From Candidatus Methylacidiphilales bacterium (GTDB taxonomy: Bacteria > Verrucomicrobiota > Verrucomicrobiia > Methylacidiphilales > CAZTYG01), in NCBI GenBank assembly GCA_033875315.1, contig JANRJG010000009.1, forward strand, positions 1 to 64,000: a stretch of DNA of 64,000 bases. The letters run 5' to 3'. The position numbers and the translations under genes were made by a program. The notes under the pieces are model-generated. The model was not told the DNA's origin. It did no database searches and saw only the letters and a program-made list of their open reading frames with translations. Positions 52,448 through 64,000 of the stretch are shown here, one piece after another; the stretch's first letter is position 1; every line of letters begins with the position of its first letter.

Positions 52448-52469
52448 AACTAGAGTGTTTCCCCTAGTT
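52448..52469. promoter_or_regulatory. Inverted repeat between the LuxR-type regulator and the island
   Basis: AACTAG and CTAGTT are exact inverted 6-mers with a 10-base spacer, 29 bases upstream of the regulator start and 65 bases before the hydrolase start. It may be an operator for the neighbouring NarL-type protein. Based on position and symmetry only. Confidence 0.3.
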
Positions 52470-52533: not shown

Positions 52534-53844
52534 ATGTCTCTAACGCATCCTGTTATATTGTTGCCAGGCATCACTGGAACTGAGCTTGTCGATTTTTACC
52601 CGCTCGACCCCTCCGATGTCTGGAAACTACTCAAGCAGGACTATGACCGGATCAAGTTACATCCGGATTCCCTCAAATATGAAGCGATCCAGCCCTCGCG
52701 TATTCTTCCCACCCGCGGTTACGAGATTCCCTATGGGGAGATGGTCGAACAGCTCCGCTTCGAACTTAGCCCCAATCAGCAAACTCCCGTGCCCGTGTTT
52801 GTTTTTCCGTATGATTGGCGGCAAAAACTTGAAGATACAGAACAGGTTCTCGACTTTTTCATTGAGGAAGTTATAGAACGAACCAAACTTCTTAAGCATT
52901 ACCATAAGTCAGAATTCGCCAAAAATCCAAAAGTGAACCTGGTCGGCCACTCGATGGGCGGCCTTATTATCTCCGGTTATTTATCGCGTTTTGGATCGAA
53001 GAAACGCGTCGGCAAAGTGGCCACCTTAGGAACCCCCTACCAAGGATCGCATGAGGCCGTGGCCCGTGTCATTACAGGAATCGATTTGCTGGGGAATGTT
53101 GTCTCCCATTCCCGCGAACGCGAATCCGCGCGTGTGACTCCGGGCCTTTATCACCTTCTGCCAAGCTATCCGGGTGCCGTCCAAGTGGATGATCCTTCTT
53201 TAGAGGAGGATTTGTTTGAGCTGACCAATTGGCAGCCCTCCATTCTGAAAACCATCAAATCCTACTCCCAAACCTATGGACTGGGCTTGCTCACACCCGA
53301 AGAAATCTTTGAAAAAATGCTGAATGCCGCCGCCACCCAACGCAAGCGTTGTAATGAGCTGACTTTGAGCAAAATGGCTAACGGGCTTCAATCAAGCGAT
53401 TGGCTTTGCGTGGTTGGCATCGGCAAAGAGACACGGGTTCAAACGCTCGTGACGAAAAAAAGCGGGAAACCCTATTTTGATATCGATGAAAAACGCGATA
53501 TACAGAATGACTGGGCACCAAAACCAAGCGATGATAGCAAACAGACCCCTACCGGAATCAGAACCGGGGATAACACCGTTCCCTATTTGGGTGCCAAACC
53601 TGCCTTCTTAAAAACAGAGGAGTTGGTCTGCGTAACCGATGACGACTTTGGTTTCTGGGAGTTAAAAGATCGCGCGATCGAAAAAGCGGCTGGCCTGCAC
53701 GGGGCTCTTCCCCTGATGAACCTGGTGCAGAAACTGGTCATTTCCCATTTCAAAGGAACAACCATCACAGGAACCTATGGTCGTCCGGCACCCGACTTAA
53801 AAAGTGAATGGAAACCTCCTATTTCCGGATTAAAAAAAGCATAA
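52534..53844 (+). CDS. LCAT-like serine hydrolase (predicted lipase/acyltransferase)
   Basis: A 436-residue protein of the lecithin:cholesterol acyltransferase-like alpha/beta hydrolases. HPVILLPGITGTEL is the oxyanion region, the nucleophile is S140 in LVGHSMGGLIISGYLSRF, the acid is probably D346 in GDNTVPYLGA, and the base H389 in GLHGALP. There is no signal peptide. ATG 52534 follows GGAG by 7 bases; an ATG 22 codons upstream lacks this. DNA is clearly AT-richer than the flanking core. It opens a five-gene same-strand block, and lipids or acyl esters are the likely target. Confidence 0.85.
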   Translation: MSLTHPVILLPGITGTELVDFYPLDPSDVWKLLKQDYDRIKLHPDSLKYEAIQPSRILPTRGYEIPYGEMVEQLRFELSPNQQTPVPVFVFPYDWRQKLEDTEQVLDFFIEEVIERTKLLKHYHKSEFAKNPKVNLVGHSMGGLIISGYLSRFGSKKRVGKVATLGTPYQGSHEAVARVITGIDLLGNVVSHSRERESARVTPGLYHLLPSYPGAVQVDDPSLEEDLFELTNWQPSILKTIKSYSQTYGLGLLTPEEIFEKMLNAAATQRKRCNELTLSKMANGLQSSDWLCVVGIGKETRVQTLVTKKSGKPYFDIDEKRDIQNDWAPKPSDDSKQTPTGIRTGDNTVPYLGAKPAFLKTEELVCVTDDDFGFWELKDRAIEKAAGLHGALPLMNLVQKLVISHFKGTTITGTYGRPAPDLKSEWKPPISGLKKA

Positions 53845-53877
53845 ATCCAACAGATTCTGTTTAAGGAATAAAGATTA

Positions 53878-54741
53878 ATGAAAAAAAATACCCCAATAAA
53901 CAACGTCTCTCCAGGCATAATAGCTTTTCTGTTTTTATTTTTGGTCGGCTGTGCTGATCTCAAAGGCATAAGGAAGTTTGCTGACACTGGCGCAGATTCG
54001 ACCTCCTACAATGCCTTTGTTACCGACTATTCCGGAACGGTTCTGCGAAGAAAAGAGTATGCCCCAGGTAAAGAACAGATTGAAAGTATTCACGTAGAGT
54101 ATGAACGTAGAATCAAAGATCAGAAGCGCCTCTTAGAATTGAATAAAACAGTAACGGACTATATGGCCGCTTTAGCCGCTTTAGCCTCCGACGAAACAAT
54201 AGATTTTAGCGCCGAAAGCAAGGAGCTAGGAGGCTCTTTGGAAAAAATAGGCTATTTAGATAAAAAGGAGACTGCTGCTGCTACAGCCCTATTCGATCTC
54301 ATAGCTAAAGCCGCCTCAGAAGGTTATAGACAAGGCAAACTGAAGGAAATTATAAAGAACTCCAATGCAGATTTGCAGGTCCTGCTAGGCTCAATTCAAC
54401 AAATTGTTGGAACTGCTTATGTTCAGTCATTGGATTCCGAAAAGTTAGCCTTGAGCTCGGCCTACCAAGGCCCTTCCATGACCGACTTGACAAAAGAAAA
54501 TGCAGCTGTCGTTCTGCCTTTGCGCTCCGTTTATTTCTCTCGCCTAACTAAATTAGAATCACAGAAAGAAGCAGCTATTATGTACAGCCAAGCTATCGGC
54601 ATTATTGCAAAAGCTCACCAGAAACTTTACGACGAGCGGAACAAGATGAGTTTAGGCCGTCTCTCAACAACTGTTGAGTTCCACGCCAAGCAGGCTAAAG
54701 CATTATATGAAGCAGCCAAAGAACTACTAAAGAAAGAATAA
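53878..54741 (+). CDS. Predicted lipoprotein of the AT-rich island
   Basis: A 287-residue protein with a basic start, a hydrophobic segment and lipobox FLVGC (Cys near 26). The mature part is helical and highly charged, with heptad-like stretches (ERRIKDQKRLLELNKTVTDY, FSRLTKLESQKEAAIMYSQA) suggesting coiled coils. I do not recognise a family. It follows the hydrolase gene by 33 bases, with AAGGA before the ATG. AT-rich like its neighbours. A chaperone or immunity role toward the hydrolase is only a guess. Confidence 0.72.
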   Translation: MKKNTPINNVSPGIIAFLFLFLVGCADLKGIRKFADTGADSTSYNAFVTDYSGTVLRRKEYAPGKEQIESIHVEYERRIKDQKRLLELNKTVTDYMAALAALASDETIDFSAESKELGGSLEKIGYLDKKETAAATALFDLIAKAASEGYRQGKLKEIIKNSNADLQVLLGSIQQIVGTAYVQSLDSEKLALSSAYQGPSMTDLTKENAAVVLPLRSVYFSRLTKLESQKEAAIMYSQAIGIIAKAHQKLYDERNKMSLGRLSTTVEFHAKQAKALYEAAKELLKKE

Positions 54742-54745
54742 TTTT

Positions 54746-55141
54746 ATGAGCAAATTAACAACTCAAGACGCCTTGGATCTGAGCAAAGAGCTTGTTTCAA
54801 TGGCAAATGAAATCGGTTCCCTGAGGCTCGCTAAATGGTCTACCTCCACATCGGCAGAAGACCGAATACTTGCGGACCAACAGTGGGATTTACTTACCAT
54901 GGCAACAAGATTAGAAACAGATGCTGTTGGCGCGATTTTGGATACAGCCCAAACAAGTATTAATAAAATCAAGTCGTCGATAAAAGCTGCGAAGAATGCG
55001 GTTAAAACAATCCAAACTATTAAGTCCGCCGTAAAAATTGCTTCGGCTGTTGTCGTCCTAGCTGGCGCAATTGCAACTCAGAATCCAGGAGCTATTGGGG
55101 GCGCTGTCGTAGCTTTGGGCAATGTTATTGCCAACCCTTGA
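54746..55141 (+). CDS. Small protein with a Lys-rich helix and hydrophobic Gly/Ala tail
   Basis: A 131-residue protein starting 4 bases after the lipoprotein stop. The first 70 residues are soluble and helical. Then comes a Lys-rich amphipathic stretch (IKSSIKAAKNAVKTIQTIKS) followed by a hydrophobic Gly/Ala tail (IASAVVVLAGAIATQNPGAI continuing to the end). This layout could be membrane-active or a tail anchor. No signal peptide and no known family. Probably translationally linked to the lipoprotein. Confidence 0.65.
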   Translation: MSKLTTQDALDLSKELVSMANEIGSLRLAKWSTSTSAEDRILADQQWDLLTMATRLETDAVGAILDTAQTSINKIKSSIKAAKNAVKTIQTIKSAVKIASAVVVLAGAIATQNPGAIGGAVVALGNVIANP

Positions 55142-55168
55142 TAACACACAAAGGCCCATTCCTGATCT

Positions 55169-55197
55169 TTGACAAATTTATGGCTAAGCATGATAAT
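55169..55197 (+). promoter_or_regulatory. Strong sigma70-like promoter inside the island
   Basis: TTGACA at 55169-55174, a 17-base spacer, and GATAAT at 55192-55197. Together this is 11 of 12 matches to the classical consensus. The expected start near 55204 leaves a leader of about 210 bases before the GTG start at 55415, which could carry a regulatory RNA. Confidence 0.5.
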
Positions 55198-55414
55198 GAC
55201 ACAAGCGCTTAAAATACACTGTTAAGAGTGGACTTGCCGACAATCACATTTGTTAACCTCCTATCAAAACTCGTCAATCACTATTAAAACAATCAGCAAC
55301 GCCTTTAAGCAACAGGGTTAAGCCCGTAAAAAAGCTCCTACTCATCGCAAAATAGGCATTAAATCTGCTAACCATACTTTATCTCATGAATTTCTTTTCT
55401 TAAAGAGGTGTTTA

Positions 55415-56074
55415 GTGAAAAAGCTAATTTATGTTATATTAATAATTTCAACCACTATTTTGAGCCATGCCAACCACGCTATGTCGGCCCCAAAACTCGA
55501 GGTTCGCATGGACTCCCAATGGAAGGCTAAAGCTTTTAACTCGACACACAATCTCAAGTTTGAGGGTGATGAAGTTGCCATCAAGTATTCTAATGATACA
55601 AATTCGAAATTCATCTGTTTTCTGGTTCGTCGCTTTTATAAGCCGAACACAATAAACCATTCGACCACAGATGATATCATAAATAACGTCTACTTCACAC
55701 GAGGCCAGGATGACAAATCAATCAAACGTCAGTATTACATAAACTTTCACAACAGTCAGAACTTACCAATCGGTCGAATATATGACGCCATTTATTCATG
55801 GCATTATCCGGAAACCAGAAGTCCATCCAACCGAAGAAGGATTTTCAACTTCCCAACAACAACCCAATCCAAAGTTAACGAAAAGGCCACTCTTCAGGCC
55901 AGAACCAGAACAGGCAATGTGCTGATTATTTTTACTAATTCCTCCAGTGATCCTACTGACGATAAATGGAGAAGTCCTTATGAGAAAATTGAAATAACAA
56001 TAATCGAACCGACGCCAATTATATCTAAATCGATCACTCTACGAAACACAGATCCAATGAAACCTTCGCTATGA
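55415..56074 (+). CDS. Predicted secreted protein of unknown function
   Basis: A 219-residue protein starting with GTG, preceded by AGAGGTG at the right distance, which supports this start. A signal peptide (KKLIYVILIISTTILSHANH) is followed by a polar, beta-looking region (FEGDEVAIKYSNDTNSKFIC, VNEKATLQARTRTGNVLIIF). No family recognised. The codons are very AT-rich. Its stop overlaps the start of the next gene by four bases (ATGA), so the two are coupled. Confidence 0.68.
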   Translation: MKKLIYVILIISTTILSHANHAMSAPKLEVRMDSQWKAKAFNSTHNLKFEGDEVAIKYSNDTNSKFICFLVRRFYKPNTINHSTTDDIINNVYFTRGQDDKSIKRQYYINFHNSQNLPIGRIYDAIYSWHYPETRSPSNRRRIFNFPTTTQSKVNEKATLQARTRTGNVLIIFTNSSSDPTDDKWRSPYEKIEITIIEPTPIISKSITLRNTDPMKPSL

Positions 56075-56709
56075 ATTCAATACTGCGTTCCACTTCTTTA
56101 TTCTACTGGAAAGACGAGCCAGCCGACCTCAAGGAGGTGCTGCTTCTAGCAGTTTCCAATATGGGTCTGTATTTTTTCTGTGTGGCTCTATACAGCATAA
56201 ATTCCGAAGCGGGATTTAAAATTTCCGAAACAATCATCACCGCCTTTCTGAGTTGCATACTTCCTCTATTTTCAAGCGTTGTTGTGATTCTCATGGGATA
56301 TGAAAAATTAACAGATGACTCTGTAGCGCGAATATCCCGAACTGTCCTGTTTGCTTGGCTACTTAGTCTGTTTGCTTTTTTGCACAATGCTATTTATGGT
56401 TTAAGTATAACTTGGGGACCGTGGCGTAACTGGCTGGGAATTAGTAATCTCGATTCTTCAACTCAGAACTTTATTTTTTCCCTGGCATATGGATTCGTTG
56501 GACCACTTCTCCTGGCCTTATGGACATGCAAGAAGTGCACAGCCCAAGGTTGGGATACTGGAAATACCTTCTTTCGAAATCTTTTTATTATCACCACATT
56601 GGTGGGGCTGATGAATAGCGCACTATTTTATGGACTCCTTTTTGACCCCCAAATCGGAGATAAGATAACAACATCTTTTTCTGCTTCAACCAAATCAGTA
56701 GAGCAATAA
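56071..56709 (+). CDS. Polytopic membrane protein of unknown function
   Basis: A 212-residue protein with about five hydrophobic segments: VLLLAVSNMGLYFFCVALYS, IITAFLSCILPLFSSVVVIL, VLFAWLLSLFAFLHNAIYG, FSLAYGFVGPLLLALWTCKK and LFIITTLVGLMNSALFYGLL. The start overlaps the secreted-protein gene (ATGA), so they are cotranslated. No family or catalytic residue is recognised. Last gene of the AT-rich block. Confidence 0.68.
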   Translation: MNSILRSTSLFYWKDEPADLKEVLLLAVSNMGLYFFCVALYSINSEAGFKISETIITAFLSCILPLFSSVVVILMGYEKLTDDSVARISRTVLFAWLLSLFAFLHNAIYGLSITWGPWRNWLGISNLDSSTQNFIFSLAYGFVGPLLLALWTCKKCTAQGWDTGNTFFRNLFIITTLVGLMNSALFYGLLFDPQIGDKITTSFSASTKSVEQ

Positions 56710-57642: not shown

Positions 57643-58002
57643 TTATTCCAGAGGCCTTGGCCGATCCTTGAAGTAACGCTCAAGGACGGCAATCAAGGGT
57701 TCAATCTCCTCTTGGGTCACGGCCCAGACAATTTGAAAATCCACCACTCCGTAATCGTGGGCGATCCGGTTGCGCATGCCCCGGATGCTTTTGAAAGGAA
57801 TCCCGGGCAGGGTGTCCTCGATCTCTCTTCCGATTTTGTGGGCGGACTCGCCCAGTACGGAAATTCTCAAGGCCACCGCATCCCGCTTCTCGTTGTTGCC
57901 CATGAATTGTTCCAAGGTCACCCCGGCCGTATAACTGCGGATCAGCCGCGCCGCTTCGAGCATGTCGTGCAGATAGGCGTCCGGGGATTTGAGCGGGCAC
58001 AT
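57643..58002 (-). CDS. hepT: HepT-like ribonuclease toxin (DUF86)
   Basis: A 119-residue HEPN-family toxin. The catalytic RX4HXY motif is R77 to Y84 in GMRNRIAHDYGVVD, preceded by LRISVLGESAHKIGREI, typical of HepT. HepT cuts tRNA or mRNA and is silenced when its partner MntA adds AMP to the motif tyrosine. It starts 5 bases after the mntA stop. Fragments matching its last 25-30 residues recur at 61.07-61.15 and 61.57-61.64 kb. Confidence 0.93.
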   Translation of the reverse strand: MCPLKSPDAYLHDMLEAARLIRSYTAGVTLEQFMGNNEKRDAVALRISVLGESAHKIGREIEDTLPGIPFKSIRGMRNRIAHDYGVVDFQIVWAVTQEEIEPLIAVLERYFKDRPRPLE

Positions 58003-58007
58003 AGGGC

Positions 58008-58445
58008 TTATCCGCGATAGATCACTTTCCGATCGGCCAGGATGGAAGCACGACGGTAGGGATTCGGCATCTGCTCCACCGAATCACGTGTCAACAGGTG
58101 GACCGGCACCCCAAGGATGTTCGACATCTCCCCTTCCATGGCAAAGAATCGCAGGCCGGGATTGGCGGCAAAGGTGGCGATCAGGTCGACGTCGCTGCCG
58201 CGCCGGGCTTCGCCCCGTGCGTTGGAACCAAAGACCTCCAGTTGGATGATGCCAGCCTGACGGCAATAATCCGCCAGCTTCTGCCCGACGACCTCCGCTG
58301 CGGGCGGGGTGCGCAAGCGTCGGGGAGCGGGCTTTTCTCCCGCACGAACGGCATTCCAGTAGGCGGCGGCCTTGAGACGATTCGCCGCCGTCTTGGCCGC
58401 AGAACGCCCCTTTCCTCCCCTGCGACTGAAGGTGGAATGATTCAC
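58008..58445 (-). CDS. mntA: MntA-like nucleotidyltransferase antitoxin with N-terminal extension
   Basis: A 145-residue minimal nucleotidyltransferase. The GSX10DXD motif runs from G73-S74 to D85/D87 in VFGSNARGEARRGSDVDLIA. It adenylylates HepT, encoded next to it. The first 60 residues are basic and Ala-rich (SAAKTAANRLKAAAYWNAVR), an addition not found in minimal MntA proteins, and might bind DNA for autoregulation. A later start would remove this extension; no Shine-Dalgarno decides it. Confidence 0.88.
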   Translation of the reverse strand: MNHSTFSRRGGKGRSAAKTAANRLKAAAYWNAVRAGEKPAPRRLRTPPAAEVVGQKLADYCRQAGIIQLEVFGSNARGEARRGSDVDLIATFAANPGLRFFAMEGEMSNILGVPVHLLTRDSVEQMPNPYRRASILADRKVIYRG

Positions 58446-61010: not shown

Positions 61011-61066
61011 GCATTCAATTTACCATGGCGTCATGGGCAGGCAATCCGCCATTTCAACGAAGAAGT

Positions 61067-61152
61067 GGCTGGTCTTTGAAATAACGCTCACCACCCTGAT
61101 AATAGGTTCGATTTCTTCTTGGGTCACGACCCAGACCGTTTGAAAATCCACC
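61067..61152 (-). pseudogene. Decayed hepT 3' fragment 1
   Basis: Translating the minus strand gives VDFQTVWVVTQEEIEPIIRV, like VDFQIVWAVTQEEIEPLIAV of the intact HepT. The following residues match HepT (ERYFKD) only after a frameshift. No start or upstream HepT sequence exists. A broken copy of the toxin's C-terminus. Confidence 0.72.
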
Positions 61153-61264
61153 GTCGCGCATGGGTGAGGAAAAAGCCCAGTCTGTCATGAATCTGGCGCA
61201 GACCCCATGGCCCTCCATTCTGCATTTCCCATTTACCATCCGCCATTTAGGATTCCCCCCCCAT

Positions 61265-61489
61265 ATGCCCCATCCCAACGACCCCCTGCACAACGTGACC
61301 TTGGAATACATCGTGACGGTATTGTCCGAACGGCACGGGTGGGAAAAACTGGGACGGGCCATCCCCATCCGCTGCTTCCTGAACAACCCTTCGGTCAAAT
61401 CCAGCCTGACCTTCCTCCGCAAAACCCCCTGGGCCCGGGCCAAAGTCGAAGAATGGTATTTGGCCGACAAGGCGGAGGACGCCCGCTGA
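61265..61489 (+). CDS. VF530-family (DUF2132) DNA-binding-like protein
   Basis: A 74-residue protein: NDPLHNVTLEYIVTVLSERH then GWEKLGRAIPIRCFLNNPSV and SSLTFLRKTPWARAKVEEWY. This is the VF530 family, small helical proteins with a SAP-like fold thought to bind DNA. Start ATG 61265 was chosen as the first conserved Met. It lies between two hepT fragments. Confidence 0.87.
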   Translation: MPHPNDPLHNVTLEYIVTVLSERHGWEKLGRAIPIRCFLNNPSVKSSLTFLRKTPWARAKVEEWYLADKAEDAR

Positions 61490-62983: not shown

Positions 62984-64000
62984 ATGAAAACTAAATACGC
63001 AAGATACGACGCTCTTCATAACGACCACAATGTCTACATTTGCGGAGCCGGTTTTTCCGTTCCTGGAGGAATACCTACAGTTAAGGACTTTTTTAACAAG
63101 ATGCGAGATGCTTATGACTGGCTTGTTGAAAAGGAGAGATTTCCTGAAGCTGATGCAATCAAAGACGTTATATCTTTTAGAATACATTCCTCCGCAGCGG
63201 GCTATTGGACTAAATTAGATTTAGAAAATATTGAAGAGCTTTTCAGTTTAGCAGCTGCATCCTCGAAACCCGACCTATTGAAAAAAATCCCAATTGCAAT
63301 TAGCGCGACAATAAGTTACTCCAGAATCATCAATACCTCCAATAGCAGAAGTATAGGCAGTAGAACCACAGCATCAAATTTAGCTGCTTTTCCATATTTC
63401 GAAAAAGTGCCCCTAATTGGGATGCCTGATGTAGAGCTATCTATTAGTTCTTACGGTCATCATGTTGGAAAGTTATTAGGAGTTTTTCAAGATGGGACTA
63501 TAAAAGGAGAAAACACATTTATCACTTTTAATTATGATACTCTGATAGAAGAAGGATTAACGGATATAAAAGTGCCATTCACTTACTCATTTGCCAATAA
63601 AACTACAAATAATGAAATAAAAGTCCACGATTACAGAGCCGATAGTAAAGTTAAAGTCCTGAAGCTTCATGGTTCTATGAACTGGGCCAAAAAGATAGGA
63701 GGCAAAGGACGTAGATTCACACTCTACGATGATTACGATATCGTGCGTGAGAAAGGCTTCATTCCGTCAATTGTACCTCCAACATGGCAAAAAGATCTGT
63801 CGGGACCTCTTACATCAATTTGGGGAAAAGCAGTAGAAGCAATCGGCTGTGCAACTAGATTAATTATAATTGGATTTTCGATTCCCAAAACAGACACGCA
63901 CTTTAAGTACTTAATTTCTGCTGGCTTAAGAAGTAACGCCTCTCTTCGAAGTATTCATATAGTAGATCCAGATTCATCAGAAGACTATCAAAATAGACTT
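62984..64000 (+). CDS. SIR2-like NAD-binding protein (partial, runs off the right edge)
   Basis: ATG at 62984 opens 339 codons with no stop before the window ends. The NAD-binding start is NVYICGAGFSVPGGIPT (GAGFS at 21-25). TFITFNYDTLIEEG gives the FNYD motif (183-186 region), KVLKLHGSMNW places the probable catalytic His at 229, and LIIIGFSIPKTDTHFKYL is the closing SIR2 motif near 295-310. Stand-alone SIR2-like proteins of this kind, or ones with a C-terminal sensor, are antiphage NADases in many defence systems. DNA is strongly AT-rich, unlike the core. C-terminus and partner genes are beyond the window. Confidence 0.85.
   Translation, partial: MKTKYARYDALHNDHNVYICGAGFSVPGGIPTVKDFFNKMRDAYDWLVEKERFPEADAIKDVISFRIHSSAAGYWTKLDLENIEELFSLAAASSKPDLLKKIPIAISATISYSRIINTSNSRSIGSRTTASNLAAFPYFEKVPLIGMPDVELSISSYGHHVGKLLGVFQDGTIKGENTFITFNYDTLIEEGLTDIKVPFTYSFANKTTNNEIKVHDYRADSKVKVLKLHGSMNWAKKIGGKGRRFTLYDDYDIVREKGFIPSIVPPTWQKDLSGPLTSIWGKAVEAIGCATRLIIIGFSIPKTDTHFKYLISAGLRSNASLRSIHIVDPDSSEDYQNRL

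Follow-up and report, generated by a model that had tools for sequence, protein, structure and literature searches.

Does an AT-rich run of five genes on one strand of a Verrucomicrobiota chromosome form a single undescribed system, and what might its lipase-like first gene do there? The question is raised by an island at positions 52,534-56,709 of a window of 64,000 nucleotides (positions 1 to 64,000 of contig JANRJG010000009.1, assembly GCA_033875315.1, from a Candidatus Methylacidiphilales bacterium). A sequence-only reading, made without database searches, had seen here a candidate five-gene module that might modify the envelope or attack membranes in defence. Our results point instead, with a probability that we put at roughly 0.55, to a horizontally acquired composite of at least two separable modules, of which module A (open reading frames ORF1-ORF3) is headed by a lipid hydrolase of the kind found in bacterial conflict systems.

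A foreign segment of five genes

The features of the island are as follows.

52534-53844, + strand: ORF1, LCAT/PGAP1-like alpha/beta hydrolase, 436 amino acids (Pfam LCAT match and putative triad)
53878-54741, + strand: ORF2, helix-rich lipoprotein, 287 amino acids, lipobox LVGC, homologous to protein P0001 of a Nostoc plasmid
54746-55141, + strand: ORF3, all-helical protein, 131 amino acids, hydrophobic C-terminal segment, remote homologue of P0002
55169-55197, + strand: between ORF3 and ORF4, promoter-like sequence TTGACA-17-GATAAT (agrees with the consensus at 11 of 12 positions, a consensus match only)
55415-56074, + strand: ORF4, secreted-looking protein, 219 amino acids, GTG start, N-terminal signal-like segment, no relatives found
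56071-56709, + strand: ORF5, membrane protein, 212 amino acids, five hydrophobic segments by hydropathy

The five frames lie exactly where they had been described; ORF1 to ORF4 are separated by 33, 4 and 273 bases in turn, and ORF4 and ORF5 overlap by 4 bases. Their G+C contents, from ORF1 to ORF5, are 0.49, 0.43, 0.45, 0.39, and 0.41. For the entire island the value is 0.436, as compared to 0.624 ± 0.016 (minimum 0.576) in same-size windows upstream, in agreement with the AT-richness reported before, and the composition changes sharply around 52.42 kb and again around 56.85 kb. A LuxR-type response regulator lies on one flank, and a small membrane protein followed by a HepT/nucleotidyltransferase pair on the other; there are no convincing flanking repeats or attachment sites around the island and no tRNA near it. 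The island is a foreign, low-G+C segment in a Verrucomicrobiota chromosome.

At the level of single genes the sequence-only reading was correct, with ORF1 as a lipase-like enzyme of the cytoplasm, ORF2 as a lipoprotein, ORF3 as a small membrane-active-looking protein, and the other two as secreted and membrane proteins. For ORF2-ORF5, searches of Pfam, NCBIfam, PADLOC, and PHROGs gave no significant match. Weak matches of these four proteins to GapR, WASH, DrmD, Phage_integr_3, and PIG-F (the last a match of ORF5, sub-threshold at 0.003) were taken as chance, and so were a weak match to a PHROG minor head protein and the PDB matches (0.011-0.19) that the ORF3 profile gave with spike/fusion constructs and with 'Protein B' 5h6i. 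ORF1 has no phage relatives, ORF1-ORF3 have none on viral contigs, and PHROGs returned nothing significant for ORF1-ORF5; phage lysis, lysogenic-conversion, or moron genes were rejected for want of phage or viral-contig relatives.

The hydrolase and the company of its relatives

ORF1 matches the Pfam LCAT family (PF02450) at 2e-11, with 44.2 bits against a curated cut-off of 21, over residues 88-214 only, and more weakly PGAP1-like and other alpha/beta-hydrolase models. The putative catalytic residues are S140 (GHSMGG), D346 (GDNTVP), and H389 (LHGALP). They are kept, in the right order and context, in all aligned relatives, including a homologue of 47% identity and a set of plasmid hydrolases; PGITG and YDWR are also kept in homologues. 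The PGI-G, YDWR, HSMGG, GDGTV, and His motifs are common to ORF1 and the plasmid hydrolases with CHAT, STAND, or trypsin partners, with exceptions in single plasmid sequences, two of which are without part of the N-terminal PGI-G stretch. Judged by these motifs, ORF1 appears to be an LCAT-like hydrolase of the same subfamily as the CHAT/STAND-partnered plasmid enzymes. It has the GxSxG nucleophile, the GDxTV aspartate, and the late histidine of LCAT/PGAP1-like acyltransferases and phospholipases (PF02450, PF07819), whereas it differs from them in being bacterial and cytoplasmic, with no signal peptide. A TTG start at 52468 would add 22 residues upstream; the 47% homologue begins at the ATG position.

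Searches with ORF1, each of up to 388 Verrucomicrobiota genomes, found close relatives in only two. The intact copy, the 47% homologue, is in a genome from another family of the phylum (G056), and the copy in the second genome (G376) is broken, its first ~117 residues being gone. The 23 other listed genomes of the same order contain no close relative, and a relative of 26-29% identity occurs in two genomes of another genus (G035 and G384), within a conserved neighbourhood of unknown genes. The nearest named relative belongs to Verrucomicrobia bacterium RA.bin38 and occupies the same locus as that of G056. Of two pattern-based scans of an 84,980-species collection, that with ORF1 alone returned nothing and that with a two-sequence alignment returned only RA.bin38.

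This locus lies among defence genes. The region upstream of the G056 hydrolase contains an unknown gene at a distance of 1.3 kb, an FRG gene at 2.6 kb, and at 3.9 kb a REase-APAZ/short-pAgo operon; a TIR-like protein is encoded farther out. PADLOC assigned the DUF4365/REase-APAZ protein and the short Argonaute at 4e-115 and 3e-147, which is the SPARDA arrangement, and the FRG-domain protein to PDC-S15 at 2e-73; the TIR-like protein gave a sub-threshold CAP12/Pycsar TIR match. No recognisable lipoprotein adjoins the G056 hydrolase. The defence island of RA.bin38 (L031, 1316-12758) also carries several unknown genes (137, 178, 358, and 494 amino acids) around the hydrolase.

Distant relatives, of 25-30% identity, were found on 32 plasmid records. 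We inspected 14 of these loci, and in 13 the hydrolase adjoins, or is fused with, an immune-type partner (CHAT, trypsin-like, NB-ARC, or STAND), a count that has no control set and is a description rather than a test. The partners are as follows.

L038: CHAT
L039: trypsin-like peptidase
L040: NACHT-like ATPase
L042: TPR-CHAT
L070: NB-ARC-CHAT
L071: single CHAT-annotated frame (record annotation alone)
L041 and L072-L077: Streptomyces, divergent STAND/WD40 set (L073, L074, and L077 by record annotation alone)

The remaining locus, from Embleya, is unannotated, and no immune-type partner was seen there. Since the Streptomyces loci form one related group, the independent architectures number about seven. 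In Rhizobium etli, the plasmid record annotates a TIR/cyclic-nucleotide-binding protein and a nucleotide cyclase (L039, 9665-11290), a Pycsar-like pair that lies 0.6 kb downstream of the hydrolase-trypsin operon. Segments resembling the ORF1 core also occur within very large open frames of 4131 amino acids (L048, genome G119) and 3110 amino acids (L069, genome G502).

The 13 plasmid neighbourhoods agree with published comparative genomics, in which the caspase-superfamily domains of one class of nucleoside triphosphate (NTP)-dependent conflict systems always come with a neighbouring alpha/beta-hydrolase gene (PMC7159879). The NTP-dependent (MoxR-vWA/caspase/STAND) systems of Kaur et al. 2020 (PMC7159879) have a stand-alone alpha/beta-hydrolase gene, as ORF1 is, and the relatives of ORF1 adjoin CHAT (caspase-superfamily), trypsin-like, and STAND proteins as those hydrolases do, a likeness drawn from gene context and not from a comparison of hydrolase sequences. 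In contrast to these systems, ORF1 itself is followed by genes for a lipoprotein and for a small helical protein, and the island has no CHAT/caspase, trypsin, or STAND gene.

Because of the company kept by its relatives and its intact triad, ORF1 is most likely a lipid hydrolase that serves as an effector in the conflict (immune) systems of bacteria. It is doubtful that ORF1 is instead an ordinary cytoplasmic lipase or acyltransferase without a conflict role, carried on a mobile segment with unrelated passengers. That account would predict its patchy distribution and low G+C just as well, and no partner NTPase or protease is present here; however, 13 of the 14 plasmid relatives, like the intact close relative, are accompanied by immune-type partners or neighbours. 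At the loci where the hydrolase was found, its setting is not one of ordinary lipid metabolism.

Two further gene pairs and the five-gene set

Among 72,556 plasmids, ORF2 matches a single one, pNsp_i of Nostoc sp. ATCC 53789 (tblastn, E 2e-5, 82% of the query), with an alignment z of 19 and none of 2000 shuffles as good. There too, the lipoprotein gene has behind it, in the same orientation, a gene of 137 amino acids (GJB62_RS35825/RS35830). ORF3 is too diverged from this gene for blastp or plasmid tblastn to return anything, but their local alignment (z = 6.5) beats all 2000 shuffles and is the best in the Nostoc locus, and the hydrophobic segment falls at residues 92-110 in ORF3 and 96-114 in the counterpart. 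Both pairs combine a lipoprotein with a small protein that has a hydrophobic segment, in the same order and on the same strand; they differ in that no hydrolase is near the Nostoc pair, and identities are low (24-26% and ~18%). A single-sequence AlphaFold2 model of ORF3 has a predicted local distance difference test score (pLDDT) of 78 and a predicted template modelling score of 0.42, with helices at 6-33, 37-112 (76 residues), and 114-129; against the PDB, the predicted fold gave nothing below E = 1.5. The model of ORF2 (pLDDT 37) is unusable. The lipoprotein beside the 26-29% hydrolases, compared for G035, is unrelated to ORF2. By these alignments, ORF2 and ORF3 form a real conserved pair that travels without the hydrolase. 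They most likely act at the envelope, either as a membrane-acting protein with a lipoprotein partner or as an exclusion pair.

The latter possibility, namely that ORF2-ORF3 serve plasmid or mobile-element exclusion or envelope modification without any relation to the hydrolase, seems improbable. TraT and TraS are an exclusion pair of a lipoprotein and an inner-membrane protein, an anatomy that ORF2-ORF3 would fit, and the one further copy belongs to a mobilizable plasmid, whose recombination/mobilisation genes end 0.4 kb before it. However, neither protein is similar to known exclusion proteins in Pfam or NCBIfam, and just two loci are known.

The pair also bears on whether ORF1 could be a secreted antibacterial lipase, similar to the Tle effectors of the type VI secretion system, with ORF2 as a periplasmic lipoprotein immunity protein. 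A lipase free of a signal peptide with a lipoprotein gene 33 bases on would suit this idea, but the genome, which is 95.65% complete, has no VipB/TssC match whereas a control genome gives one, the annotated relatives sit with CHAT/STAND genes, the G056 copy lacks the adjoining lipoprotein, and ORF2 occurs in Nostoc without a hydrolase. The absence of TssC in particular makes this explanation very improbable.

Another possibility, which we regard as unlikely, is that ORF1-ORF3 are a three-component membrane-attack immune operon, in which ORF3 would insert in the inner membrane, ORF1 would degrade its lipids, and the ORF2 lipoprotein would sense envelope damage or restrain ORF3. The three genes are closely spaced and co-directional, promoter-like sites are absent from the gaps that separate them, ORF3 has predicted long helices and a hydrophobic C-terminus, ORF2-ORF3 are a conserved pair, and the hydrolase is found in defence contexts elsewhere. 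Against this, no second genome has all three genes, the Nostoc pair is without a hydrolase, the hydrolases of G056 and G376 are without the pair, and the ORF2 model is of no use. It is slightly less likely still that they are a new operon of this type in which the lipoprotein and the small helical protein take the place of the protease/STAND switch that as a rule governs LCAT-like effectors of this class.

No relatives of ORF4 or ORF5 turned up in the libraries, in 195 genomes, or on plasmids. Among the promoter-like sites of the region the best, of sigma70 type, lies in the 273-base gap before them; a division of the five genes into at least two transcription units is therefore probable, although the total of such sites is not above that of shuffles and the candidate is suggestive only. 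ORF4-ORF5 may thus be a separate orphan secreted/membrane pair with its own transcription unit.

The five genes were never found together in any of the collections searched (Verrucomicrobiota genomes, plasmids, phages, and viral contigs), which is the outcome that the sequence-only reading had named beforehand as refuting its proposal. ORF2 and ORF3 occur without the hydrolase, and the hydrolase without ORF2-ORF5; the modules are separate, the five genes look like two or three pieces of independent acquisition, and the single five-gene system is therefore rejected for these collections. The genome-wide searches centred on Verrucomicrobiota, ORF3 not being searched across genomes and ORF4-ORF5 being searched in 195, so the absence of a conserved five- or three-gene set is strong within the phylum and weak beyond it. 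From the earlier proposal of a membrane-attacking defence cassette, what is retained is the part concerning ORF1, through the defence island and the CHAT/STAND/trypsin context of its relatives, and what is lost is its unity.

Elsewhere in the window, a HepT-like RNase and MNT nucleotidyltransferase pair of the toxin-antitoxin type (57643-58445, - strand) lies ~0.9 kb downstream of the island. The translation of 61054-61470 (- strand) looks like a frame-shifted copy of the HepT gene region at 57.7 kb, limited to its C-terminal part, and is apparently a degenerate duplicate. A second low-G+C island (38-45%) begins at 62984 and continues through the end of the window to contig position 66639 (L034, 2984-6639). 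It adjoins ribonucleotide reductase genes, carries a SIR2-like (SIR2_2) protein (62984-64150, + strand) and a P-loop ATPase (65074-66639, - strand) whose match to nSTAND3 is weak, and looks like a second defence module.

A probable conflict role for the hydrolase

If the composite reading is right, ORF1 would be an intracellular serine lipid hydrolase or acyltransferase, of the LCAT/PGAP1-like kind that serves bacteria as an effector in conflict systems gated by an NTPase or a protease. It would be kept inactive in the cytoplasm and be released or activated during attack by a phage or mobile element. It would then hydrolyse or transacylate the phospholipids of its own membrane through Ser140-Asp346-His389, thereby halting the cell. 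In the relatives, the CHAT, trypsin, or STAND partner would be the switch. The ORF2-ORF3 cassette, here joined to the hydrolase, may be a membrane-acting pair that works with ORF1 or a mere neighbour, and module B (ORF4-ORF5) would be a separate orphan pair.

Several points weigh against this account. There are no CHAT, trypsin, or STAND genes in the island and no CHAT match in the whole genome, so the usual trigger is missing; ORF1 would be an orphaned effector, or be controlled by ORF2-ORF3, or have its control gene elsewhere. The plasmid relatives align with ORF1 over the first half of the protein only, at their 25-30% identity. PADLOC-DB models gave no match for ORF1-ORF5 beyond a chance-level DrmD match for ORF3. 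In addition, the spacing of 33 and 4 bases suggests that ORF1-ORF3 are one operon, which speaks against the pair being only a neighbour.

In the literature that we searched, there is no direct study of LCAT-type anti-phage effectors and no biochemistry on LCAT-like hydrolases coupled to CHAT, trypsin, or STAND proteins. The coupling of such hydrolases to CHAT, trypsin-like, and NLR-like (STAND) proteins parallels the way in which proteases are linked to membrane damage when eukaryotic cells die, and the ORF1 locus adds a variant whose nearest relative adjoins a short-Argonaute operon. The island also presents a two-gene lipoprotein/helical-protein cassette, without a Pfam family, that is common to Verrucomicrobiota and a cyanobacterial plasmid.

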